Of a DNA stretch of 64,000 nucleotides, positions 21,527 through 27,631 are shown piece after piece; position 1 is the stretch's first letter; each line of letters opens with the position of its first letter. The notes below the pieces were generated by a model. That model was not told the origin of the DNA. It saw only the letters and a program-made list of their open reading frames with translations, and ran no database searches. Location of the stretch: contig NZ_CP060395.1 in assembly GCF_015840335.1 (NCBI RefSeq), positions 62,001 to 126,000 on the forward strand. Reading direction: 5' to 3'. A program made the translations under genes and the position numbers. The DNA is from Synechococcus sp. CBW1108 (GTDB taxonomy: Bacteria; Cyanobacteriota; Cyanobacteriia; PCC-6307; Cyanobiaceae).

Positions 21527-21890
21527 TTGCATGCTGTGAGCGTGAGTGGGCTCAAGCACAATCCGGCCGATGCCCTTCGTCAGGCCCGCAGCAGCCCGGT
21601 GGTGGTGCTCAATCGCGACCATCCCGATGCGGTGCTGATTGGCCTGGAGCAGGGGGGGCGTGCTGCAGGCACCGGGGGTACGAGCGGCACTGGCCACAGC
21701 CCTATTTCGCGATGGCGAGCTCTCGCTGGCGCGTGCAGCCCGTGTGGCTGAGAGGGATGTAGCCAGCTTCATCGCCCACCTCGGCCGCCTCGGCATCCCG
21801 GCGATTCGCCTGAGCGCTGCTGAATCCAACGCCGATCTCGACACCCTGGAGCAATGGCTGCAATCGTCATCGCCGACGCCAGCCAACTGA
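21527..21890 (+). pseudogene. Phd/UPF0175-type antitoxin gene with one-base frameshift
   Basis: A GGAGG ribosome site at 21514-21518 precedes a TTG start at 21527. The first frame reads HAVSVSGLKHNPADALRQAR and VVVLNRDHPDAVLIGLEQ, Phd-like. The second frame continues GVLQAPGVRAALATALFRDG, ARAARVAERDVASFIAHL and RLGIPAIRLSAAE, UPF0175-like. The frames join across a run of seven G (21652-21658). With six G the whole 21527-21890 would read as one 120-residue protein. It overlaps the DUF3368 toxin gene, its expected partner. Either a homopolymer sequencing error or a real one-base insertion would explain it. Confidence 0.8.
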
Positions 21891-22342
21891 TCGCCCTTGC
21901 CCGCGTAGGCGGGCTGAGCTGGCTGCAGCAACTGTTCACCGTAGTAATGGTCACCGAGGTGGTGCTAGCCGAGGTGCTCACGGGCCGATACCCCGACACG
22001 GAGACCCCGATCCGGCAGGCCCTGGCGGCTGGTTGGCTGCAGACCGTCGCCATTGCCTCCACATACCCGGAGCTGCCCGATCTCGATGAAGGGGAGGCGT
22101 CCAGCATCCGTCTGGCGCTGAGCCGCAACGGCCCGGCCCTGTTGCTGATCGATGAGCGCTTCGGACGGGCCGTGGCTCAGGAGCTGGGCCTCAGCGTAGC
22201 CGGCACCGCCGCCGTGATCGGCTTGGCCCGCCAACGCGGCCTGATCCCCTCAGCCCGGCAGGTATTTGAAGCACTCCATGCTAGCGATTTCCGCATTGCA
22301 CCGGCGGTGATCCAGGCCGTATTTGATCGCTGTGGCGATTGA
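21854..22342 (+). CDS. DUF3368-family PIN-like toxin
   Basis: A 162-residue protein with IVIADASQLIALARVGGL (first acidic residue of the PIN-like site), LDEGEASSIRLAL, and LLIDERFGRAVAQELGLSVAGTAAVIGLARQRGLIP. These are the hallmarks of DUF3368, a presumed ribonuclease toxin normally encoded after a UPF0175 antitoxin, as here. Its start lies inside the antitoxin gene in a different frame. If the antitoxin frameshift is real, this toxin would lack its cognate partner, so its expression or activity is doubtful. Confidence 0.82.
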   Translation: MAAIVIADASQLIALARVGGLSWLQQLFTVVMVTEVVLAEVLTGRYPDTETPIRQALAAGWLQTVAIASTYPELPDLDEGEASSIRLALSRNGPALLLIDERFGRAVAQELGLSVAGTAAVIGLARQRGLIPSARQVFEALHASDFRIAPAVIQAVFDRCGD

Positions 22343-22626
22343 GCCAGCACCCCCTCGGCCGAGAGCTCCACGTTCACCCATTTGCCCCGGCGCGTCCCCA
22401 TCTGCGGCTCACCCTCTATATCCGCTATGTCCCAGACGACATAGCCGAACGCCTGGAACGGCTTGCCAGCCGCGCGGGATTGCCGTTGAGCACCTTCGCG
22501 TTGCAGGAGCTCAGCGAATCAGCCCGCCGTGCTGACAACGCCGAGCTGCTCCAAGCGTTGCCCTCCTTTGAGATCGACCCCGCCGAGCTGCTCGAGGTCT
22601 TGCGCCAAAGCCGCGCTGAACACTGA
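22339..22626 (+). CDS. Ribbon-helix-helix antitoxin (VapB/FitA-like)
   Basis: The conserved protein begins LTLYIRYVPDDIAERLERLASRAGLPLSTFALQEL (a strand plus two helices, RHH type) and ends in an acidic toxin-wrapping tail (FEIDPAELLEVLRQSRAEH). The open frame begins at TTG 22339, overlapping the DUF3368 stop as TTGA. Its first 20 or so residues derive from a reversed Phd remnant and look unnatural. The codon just before the conserved region is CTG (22402), where homologues would be expected to have ATG. The start may therefore have been altered. It overlaps the vapC start by one base. Confidence 0.72.
   Translation: MSQHPLGRELHVHPFAPARPHLRLTLYIRYVPDDIAERLERLASRAGLPLSTFALQELSESARRADNAELLQALPSFEIDPAELLEVLRQSRAEH
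22345..22401 (-). pseudogene. Phd-type antitoxin remnant
   Basis: On the minus strand this stretch reads GEPQMGTRRGKWVNVELSAE, matching GEAQKVTRLGKWVSVVLSAE at about 24120-24180. The sequence on either side does not continue a Phd gene. It is a short fossil embedded in the 5' part of the RHH antitoxin frame. Confidence 0.55.
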
Positions 22627-23009
22627 TGGTGGTGGTGGATGCTTCGGTTCTGATGGAGGCACTGTTGATCGATGGCCCTGCGCGAGCCCGGCTTGCGGAT
22701 GTCAATCTCCAGGCACCAGACCAGATTGATGCCGAGCTGCTCACGGTGCTGCGCCGCCTGGTGATAGCTGGTCGAATACCTGAGCAGCACGCCCTGCGAG
22801 CTCTGACCACCAGCCAGCAGCTCGGCATGCGTCGACATGTCAGCCGCCACCTATGGCCGCGGGCATGGGAAATGCGTACCAATCTCACCGCCTACGACGC
22901 GCTCTACGTCGCCCTAGCCGAACAGCTGGGAGCCACCCTGCTCACCGCCGACGCCCGTGCGGCGCGGGCTCCCGGCCTGCTTTGCCCCGTGGAAGTGATG
23001 ACCCCATGA
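22626..23009 (+). CDS. vapC: PIN-domain ribonuclease toxin VapC
   Basis: A 127-residue PIN toxin, expected to cleave tRNA or other RNA. The four acidic positions are visible: VVVDASVLMEALL (Asp5), IDAELLTVLRRL (Glu near residue 38), TAYDALYVALAEQLGATLLTADARAA (two Asp, about residues 90-110). It starts one base inside the RHH antitoxin stop (TGATG), a standard vapBC arrangement. No lesion is visible. Confidence 0.88.
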   Translation: MVVVDASVLMEALLIDGPARARLADVNLQAPDQIDAELLTVLRRLVIAGRIPEQHALRALTTSQQLGMRRHVSRHLWPRAWEMRTNLTAYDALYVALAEQLGATLLTADARAARAPGLLCPVEVMTP

Positions 23010-23146
23010 GCGTCTACAGCGAAGATCCTGGGCCCGCAGATTGTTCGAGCACTTGGTGAGCCCCACCGACTTCTCCCGTTTTTGTGGACAGTGCTGCAGC
23101 GCTTCCCCGGCTGAGTAAACTAGTTAAATAACCAATTCAAAAGACC

Positions 23147-23389
23147 ATGGAGCGTTCCATCGGCGCCTTTGAAGCCAAATCCCAGCTCTCGCGGCTGCTG
23201 CGGGCTGTGGAGCATGGCGAGCACTTCACGATCACTGTTCGAGGCAAGCCCGTGGCCGACTTGGTGCCCCACCAACATCACTCCAGCCATGGCGTGGCCC
23301 TAGCCATCAAGGCGATGCAGAATCTCCCGCTGATTCGCGGCGTCCGAGATGCCGACGTGGCGAGCTTCGTGGCGGAGGGGCGACATTGA
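23147..23389 (+). CDS. Phd/YefM-type antitoxin of a VapBC pair
   Basis: An 80-residue protein starting MERSIGAFEAKSQLSRLLRAVEHGEHFTIT, the Phd/YefM N-terminal DNA-binding fold, then VRGKPVADLVP and a tail that should bind the toxin. The ATG is preceded by an AT-rich stretch (23115-23146) likely to hold its promoter, which the antitoxin should autorepress together with its partner. Its stop overlaps the toxin start. Confidence 0.86.
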   Translation: MERSIGAFEAKSQLSRLLRAVEHGEHFTITVRGKPVADLVPHQHHSSHGVALAIKAMQNLPLIRGVRDADVASFVAEGRH

Positions 23390-23805
23390 CCCTCGTGATT
23401 GATGCCTCCATGGCCCTGGCCTGGATATTTGAACGTGAGCAAGCCAGTGATGCAGAAAGGGCCAGCAGACTCCTGGCCGCTTGTGGCGAGCAAGCCTGGT
23501 GGGTGCCGGGCCTCTGGCACCTTGAAGTGGCCAATGCGCTGGTGGTAGCCGAGCGGCGCGGTGTCATCGCCCCGAGTGCCAGCGATCTGTTCCTGGCCAG
23601 GCTCAGCGGCTTGCCGATCTGCACGGAAGCAGAGGCCACTAGGGAACTCCAATCCAGGGTGATCCCTCTGGCCCGTTCCCATAACCTCTCCAGTTATGAC
23701 GCCACCTACCTGGACTTGGCACTCCGGCTAAGTGGAACCTTGGCCAGCTTTGATCGCCGGCTGATTCAATCAGCCGCAGACCTAGGGATAACCATCTACC
23801 AGTAA
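23386..23805 (+). CDS. vapC: PIN-domain ribonuclease toxin VapC
   Basis: A 139-residue PIN toxin: [14 protein letters not shown] (first Asp), [17 protein letters not shown] (Glu), [26 protein letters not shown] (paired acidic residues). The start is TTG 23386 in a TTGA overlap with the antitoxin stop, so translation is coupled. It is the second intact PIN toxin within 1.2 kb and is only distantly similar to the first. Confidence 0.88.
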
Positions 23806-26412: not shown

Positions 26413-26526
26413 ATGGCTCCCCAAAAAACGCCCTCTCCCCGCACCATCAAGCTGCAGATCCTGGGCGCCGTGTTTGTGCCGATCGCGCTGCTGGGGCTCT
26501 GGCTGCGCTCCCAGGGCTTCTGGTGA
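26413..26526 (+). CDS. Putative 37-residue membrane protein
   Basis: An ATG at 26413 opens a short frame with a basic N-terminus (MAPQKTPSPRTIKLQ) and one hydrophobic helix (ILGAVFVPIALLGLWLR) ending SQGFW. It has the layout of small thylakoid or plasma-membrane proteins. It is antisense to the last 26 codons of the umuD-like gene, whose own tail beyond HHLTR looks unusual. No homologue is recognised from memory. Confidence 0.45.
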   Translation: MAPQKTPSPRTIKLQILGAVFVPIALLGLWLRSQGFW

Positions 26527-26995
26527 GGTGATGTACCGCATGGATCACCACACCCCAGATCAGCAGATCGGGATCCTCCCCCTGGAGGGCGATCGCGGGG
26601 CTGGTGCCATCACTGGCCACCAGCCGCCACTGGCCCGGGCGCCCTTCCAGCCGACGCAGCACAAAGCCACCCTGGTGCACTGCCACCACTGTGGAACCTG
26701 AGCGCGGAGCCACGCTGCGGTCAACCACCAACAGATCACCGTGGTGGATGCCATCGCCACGCATGGCGTCACCATCCACGCGCATCAGGAAGCTGGAACT
26801 GGGGCGCGGCATCAGAACCCCATTGAGATCGATCACGGCCTCGACGTAATCGTCGGCGGGGCTGGGGAATCCCGCGGAAACCGACTCCAGCGCCAGGGGC
26901 AGGAGCAGGGGAGGCTGATCCTGGGAGAGGGGGCCCAGCCAAACCAGGTCACCAGCTAGATCGCTAGAGGGATCGCTAGAGATATCGCAATCCAT
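26447..26995 (-). CDS. umuD: UmuD-like S24 protein lacking the Ser-Lys dyad
   Basis: UmuD is normally self-cleaved in the SOS response and joins UmuC as polymerase V. The 182-residue product retains the cleavage region as AGFPSPADDY (Ala-Gly bond) and the fold VIDLNGVLMPRPSSSFLMRV, GIHHGDLLVVDRS and LLIWGVVIHAVHHLTR. The catalytic Ser, normally in G-D-S-M, is Ala in VDGDAMRGDGI, and the catalytic Lys position reads Arg in GGFVLRRLEG. No umuC adjoins it. The C-terminus extends about 23 Ala/Arg-rich residues beyond the usual end. Self-cleavage appears impossible. Confidence 0.85.
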   Translation of the reverse strand: MDCDISSDPSSDLAGDLVWLGPLSQDQPPLLLPLALESVSAGFPSPADDYVEAVIDLNGVLMPRPSSSFLMRVDGDAMRGDGIHHGDLLVVDRSVAPRSGSTVVAVHQGGFVLRRLEGRPGQWRLVASDGTSPAIALQGEDPDLLIWGVVIHAVHHLTRSPGSAARAPAARSAQTRRPGSAA

Positions 26996-27043
26996 GGCAC
27001 CCGAACCCCGCCAGCGCGAAAGCTCAGCAATAGTACGCCCGTA

Positions 27044-27631
27044 TCAATCGCCGCAGCCACGGCGCACCACCTCGGCCCGCAGGGCCATGAGCTCACGGGC
27101 TTCGGGCAGCCGGGGAGAGAACAGCAGCGCCCAGGCCAACGACACGTCGCCCCCATCCAGGGCTGTCTCGATGGCCGCAAGCCAGGCCGACGGGCGCTGG
27201 CCGAGGGAGCGCATCAGGGCTTCGGTGCTGGCCATCCGCTGGGCCGATGCACCCACCAGCTGCACATGGGCAAAGGCACCCTCGGGGGCCTGCCGGGGCC
27301 GCAGGCGCAACAGCACAACCTCACCTGGGCTGATCGGATCGAGGGGCCAGCTCAAGGGGGCCTGGAAGGTTTTGCCCGCAGCCGCCCGCTGCTGCCACAC
27401 CAGGCGGCCCTGGCGTTCGATGCGAAGTTCCAGCAGCGGATCAATCACCACCAGCTGGGGCCGGGGCGTGGGCACCAGGCCAAGGGCATCGCCCTCGTGC
27501 ACCGCTTCCACCCGGGGAGACACCACGCAGACCGCCACCGGCGCTGCCGGCCCCTGCAGGGCCAGGGCCGGCAGCGCCGCCAACACCCCCAACCAAGTCA
27601 GGAGCACAGAGATGACAGGGGGTCTGCTCAA
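27044..27631 (-). CDS. Secreted/periplasmic protein, unknown function
   Basis: Starting at TTG 27631 (an alternative is GTG 27607) it encodes about 195 residues with a signal peptide (VISVLLTWLGVLAALPALA). A beta-rich domain follows (EVVLLRLRPRQAPEGAFAHVQL) and a helical C-terminal part ends in LPEARELMALRAEVVRRG. LVVIDPLLELRIERQGRLVWQQ recalls cyanobacterial envelope proteins of unknown role. The frame is open further upstream but runs into sequence between it and arsS. The gene lies 43 bp downstream of arsS. Confidence 0.65.
   Translation of the reverse strand: MSRPPVISVLLTWLGVLAALPALALQGPAAPVAVCVVSPRVEAVHEGDALGLVPTPRPQLVVIDPLLELRIERQGRLVWQQRAAAGKTFQAPLSWPLDPISPGEVVLLRLRPRQAPEGAFAHVQLVGASAQRMASTEALMRSLGQRPSAWLAAIETALDGGDVSLAWALLFSPRLPEARELMALRAEVVRRGCGD

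Follow-up and report, generated by a model that had tools for sequence, protein, structure and literature searches.

The window analysed here, i.e. a whole stretch of DNA of 64,000 nucleotides, carries one half of what we interpret, with moderate confidence, as a umuD function divided between two genes. In this interpretation, umuD was split into an armless subunit, active as a protease and as a subunit of DNA polymerase V (pol V), and an armed, catalytically dead partner, encoded in the window, that would be cut in trans under RecA. The evidence for such a split comes from sequences, conservation, co-occurrence, gene order and promoter boxes. A stricter version, in which the armless UmuD cuts only its dedicated dead armed partner, making the activation of pol V dependent on strictly intermolecular cleavage and on the balance between two genes located apart from each other, seems to us evenly poised between right and wrong.

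The dead armed gene lies at positions 26447–26995 on the reverse strand, from an ATG at 26995 to a stop codon at 26447–26449, and encodes a protein of 182 amino acids. Its original designation as UmuD-like is supported by matches to Peptidase_S24 of Pfam (PF00717, 1.2e-20) and to the NCBIfam model of the pol V autoproteolytic subunit (NF007621, 113.2 bits for a cut-off of 110). HumD, the phage UmuD'-like protein (NCBIfam NF051876), resembles the armless partner gene, whereas the dead armed protein carries an arm and scores 71.9 bits with the HumD model, below its cut-off of 120; the LexA model was matched by the C-terminal part only, at 49.5 bits for a cut-off of 110.95. The nearest solved structures are those of E. 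coli UmuD (8gmt, 8.8e-23) and UmuD' (1umu, 1.2e-21), and an AlphaFold2 model, confident in the core and disordered in the arm, has its best fold matches in UmuD' (1umu and 1ay9), in agreement with the predicted retention of the fold.

Residues were mapped by alignment to E. coli UmuD and UmuD' (8gmt, 1umu) and to the classic cyanobacterial UmuDs, i.e. those with the arm, the serine and the lysine. Ala77 (GCC codon, 26765–26767, reverse strand) falls at the position of the catalytic Ser60 of E. coli UmuD and Arg114 (CGT codon, 26654–26656, reverse strand) at that of Lys97, and no other alignment register was found to restore Ser or Lys. The Ala41–Gly42 bond (codons at 26870–26875, reverse strand) is equivalent to Cys24–Gly25 of E. 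coli UmuD, and the segment GFPSPAxDY is equally distant from the catalytic positions in both proteins. The S24 domain and the arm with its Ala/Cys-Gly site are present and the Ser-Lys dyad is absent, as the original prediction had it, and the catalytic residues have not been displaced elsewhere. A convergent open reading frame of 37 amino acids (26413–26526, forward strand; MAPQKTPSPRTIKLQILGAVFVPIALLGLWLRSQGFW) overlaps the 3' end of the gene; it has a hydrophobic stretch, no Pfam match and a similar counterpart convergent with the dead armed gene in another genus (g62), and is regarded here as a marker of conserved position outside the mechanism. Elsewhere in the window, a cluster of small open reading frames (21854–23805, forward strand) includes PIN-domain and DUF3368 proteins and is toxin-antitoxin-like.

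The dead armed protein belongs to a family of 42 distinct sequences from five genera (Cyanobium and relatives), in which Ala at the serine position and Arg at the lysine position are found in 42/42, through three codons (GCC, GCG, GCT) and four codons (CGG, CGC, CGT, CGA), respectively. The reading frame is intact in every member, the median pairwise dN/dS is 0.29 (NG86) with a median dS near 1, and a umuC neighbour occurs in 0/42. Since the same residues are common to all members, sequencing error was ruled out as the source of Ala and Arg, and a pseudogene was ruled out by dN/dS and conservation. The window's genome, a cyanobacterial genome of 3.2 Mb in a single contig, has Synechococcus sp. 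8F6 and Cyanobium usitatum as named close relatives, and is one of the 12 genomes, among 16 sampled in the genus, in which the gene was found with an identity of at least 71%. Neither a phage nor a plasmid origin was retained: the nearest relative on a viral contig reached 48% identity at most, none being close, and 52% was the maximum among the plasmid matches listed. One genome (G007) carries two differing dead armed copies (G007:C59:17924-18418 and G007:C119:4591-5082), each resembling a different sublineage, which reflects either a further acquisition or an assembly of mixed origin.

If the catalytic site had merely relaxed, variable residues would be anticipated at its positions. Such variation is seen in the same genomes in a third type of UmuD, which is short, armless and dead, with Gly or Arg in place of Ser and Arg in place of Lys. 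Genes of this dead-short type (G000:C1:3196560-3196922 and 3003880-3004197 in the window's genome, i.e. L056 and L057, together with L060–L062, L064–L067 and L246) are solitary, lie behind a LexA-type box and are dispersed in several copies per genome. They sit within a repeated stretch of ~0.7 kb, often with a small upstream open reading frame, which may be mobile; a near-identical copy was found in another genus (G237). Altered dyads were also observed in single UmuDs adjoining umuC in more distant cyanobacteria and relatives (L033 of G029, L116 and L144), as Arg/Arg without the AGFPSP arm motif, and as Gly/Arg and Ser/Arg with the arm; two of them (L116 and L033), labelled dead-short from their motifs, were rejected from that type as unrelated. 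In the Synechococcus lacustris group (L118, L211, L212), the sole UmuD found adjoins umuC and has Ala in place of Ser with the Lys and the armed cleavage segment kept, which is an independent loss of the dyad, no partner being seen.

The original prediction also held that no umuC adjoins the dead armed gene, and proposed that a second umuD and a umuC be sought elsewhere in the genome. Both exist. Five S24 matches were found in the window's genome: the dead armed UmuD, LexA, a pair of short paralogues, and a UmuD bearing Ser and Lys. The gene of the last immediately precedes the only umuC detected (G000:C1, ~2.42 Mb), and its product has neither an N-terminal arm nor the AGFPSP segment with its cleavage bond. 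Its exact N terminus is uncertain because no obvious ATG is present, TTG being the likely start. Such an armless UmuD directly precedes umuC in 36/36 distinct full sequences, a set that leaves out two classic UmuDs cut off at contig ends (L224 and L157), and the Ser and Lys are invariant in all 36, among few invariant columns otherwise. The classic UmuDs stand alone beside umuC, and a single classic UmuD at umuC, with neither half of the split, is the arrangement in the majority of the other family genomes examined, four of them from the same genus.

Co-occurrence was surveyed in a 251-genome sample of the family, the remaining genomes being screened, not exhaustively, by DNA pattern and match counts. 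The armless UmuD was detected in 38 sampled genomes (12 in g1, 16 in g6, 6 in g62, 3 in g46 and 1 in g74); the dead armed gene was also present in 38/38 of them, in one case (G236) as judged from a DNA pattern match alone, and reciprocally the armless UmuD in 38/40 genomes with the dead armed gene. In g62, both UmuD genes share one locus and one strand, the dead armed gene lying upstream of the armless umuD and umuC. In a UmuD tree built on 110 columns only, with weak inner forks, the dead armed and dead-short types grouped together (SH-aLRT 99), apart from a clade of the armless sequences (SH-aLRT 96), suggesting that the armless and dead armed types each arose about once. About three changes between the split and classic states are needed on the rpoB tree, so that the 38 genomes cannot be counted as separate tests: the two genes have been gained or lost together, but few times.

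The cleavage segment of the dead armed family has remained much like that of the classic UmuDs, with GFPS in 42/42 sequences, Ala at P1 and Val or Ile at P3 in 40/42 each, and Glu at P5 and Leu at P8 in 41/42 each. A site without an enzyme and a dyad without a bond each look useless alone, and make sense together if the cutting of the dead armed protein falls to the armless one. In g74, two genomes (G088 and G138, assemblies 89% and 77% complete) carry umuC and the dead armed gene, and the armless UmuD was not detected in either assembly; their umuC (L378 and L377, respectively) has no umuD upstream and follows its own site resembling a LexA-type box. Among the 42 dead armed proteins, those of these two genomes alone have P1 Thr and P3 Pro. 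Conserved positions elsewhere in these two proteins have also changed, at 2–3/44 compared with 2/13 in the cleavage segment. Their congener G115 has kept both UmuD genes and the cleavage site. This pattern, which represents one event in two close and incomplete genomes, is suggestive of an enzyme that was lost first and a substrate site that decayed afterwards.

A LexA-type box (GATACGGGCGTACT) lies upstream of the dead armed gene at 27032–27045 on the reverse strand, and agrees with the published cyanobacterial LexA box, AGTACWNWTGTACT (PMC3091678), at 8/10 consensus positions. Weak alone, as such a score is expected by chance several times per 64 kb, this box counts because of its placement and its conservation in relatives: boxes scoring 8–10/10 were found at the matching place in 37/41 dead armed genes, versus 1.8% of shuffles. 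LexA-like sites were likewise located upstream of 32/36 armless, 9/10 dead-short and 30/32 classic genes. The dead armed and armless genes are both probably induced by DNA damage.

Under the split that we favour, umuD would have been duplicated in the ancestor of this cyanobacterial group. The copy on the umuC side would have kept the Ser-Lys dyad and lost the arm with its cleavage bond, being born UmuD'-like and presumably remaining a competent protease, and the other copy, that of the window, would have retained both arm and Ala-Gly bond while fixing Ala and Arg at the catalytic positions. Most likely, the dead armed subunit pairs with the armless one in a dimer and keeps pol V in check, a part played in E. 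coli by full-length UmuD; the armless subunit, prompted by RecA-ssDNA, would then remove the arm in trans, leaving a UmuD'-like dimer available to UmuC, with an expected effect on mutagenesis. Purifying selection, at dN/dS of 0.29 and 0.42, was counted in favour of this split.

The E. coli UmuD/UmuD' system (pol V, UmuD'2C) shares with the cyanobacterial one the S24 fold, the arm and, putatively, an SOS-type promoter box, and differs in having one self-cutting gene, whereas here the Ser and Lys sit in a second, armless gene. Another parallel, for which McDonald et al. 1998 is reportedly a further source, is the mixture of E. coli UmuD 18 and UmuD S60A. In their heterodimers, UmuD 18, with a shortened and uncuttable arm, cuts the UmuD S60A arms in the presence of RecA-ssDNA (PMC5342242), i.e. 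an arm-truncated active form acts in trans on a dead armed one. The cyanobacterial pair resembles a naturally occurring form of this mixture, the same division appearing, by sequence alone, in two natural genes rather than in engineered variants of one. A second umuD copy has been counted in Cyanobium gracile PCC 6307, in a report whose accessible part gives copy number only, and no catalytic residues, arms or split (PMC5101192). The UmuDAb of Acinetobacter, compared by description only, is another diverged UmuD with a separate task in the DNA-damage response, described in the accessible part of its source as a repressor requiring its N-terminal domain (PMC4807011). No division of UmuD into an active armless form and a dead armed one was found in the open papers searched, most of the subscription literature lying outside this search.

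The original prediction left a choice between an uncleaved inhibitor of pol V and a substrate cut in trans by another UmuD or by LexA. The evolutionary evidence favours the trans substrate, with the armless UmuD upstream of umuC as its partner. The chief rival, which we consider unlikely overall, is that the dead armed UmuD is never cut, the balance between the two genes determining pol V activity: it would titrate the armless UmuD into heterodimers, or act as a checkpoint by holding UmuC, the clamp or the replicative polymerase. Such a role is consistent with a dyad that is dead in all dead armed members, with the degradation of UmuD' by ClpXP that follows from UmuD/UmuD' heterodimers in E. 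coli, and with the contribution of non-cleavable UmuD to UmuC insolubility in the same species (PMC4552617). The arm segment could also be kept for binding and not for cutting, and the S. lacustris relatives, with their partnerless, armed and Ser-less UmuD, indicate that an intact site can persist at least some time without an obvious enzyme. However, a never-cut inhibitor leaves unexplained both the invariant Ser and Lys of the armless UmuD and the P1 and P3 changes exactly where the armless UmuD is missing. The two roles are also compatible, as the armed partner could inhibit until cut.

A decaying relic, or recruitment to a role unrelated to pol V, might be suspected from the loss of both catalytic residues and from the missing umuC neighbour, and appears very improbable in view of the open frames throughout, the dN/dS of the family, its uniform Ala and Arg, conserved site and LexA-type boxes, and the strictness with which the gene accompanies the armless UmuD. 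Scarcely any weight, and marginally the least, goes to cleavage in trans by the cell's LexA instead of the armless UmuD: the genome does encode a LexA that has Ser and Lys as well as an Ala-Gly site, but this accounts neither for the dyad of the armless UmuD nor for its co-occurrence with the dead armed gene, and classic genomes also have LexA, yet no dead armed UmuD persists there.

Studies of intramolecular versus intermolecular cutting of UmuD, and of UmuD/UmuD' heterodimers, have used engineered mutants, since one gene gives both forms. Here, substrate and enzyme are seemingly separate natural genes, each of which could be deleted or assayed alone. If the split of umuD that we favour is true, it would provide a clear case of a self-processing protein that evolved into an enzyme–substrate pair, and mutagenesis after DNA damage would be under a distinct control in picocyanobacteria that are common in fresh water.
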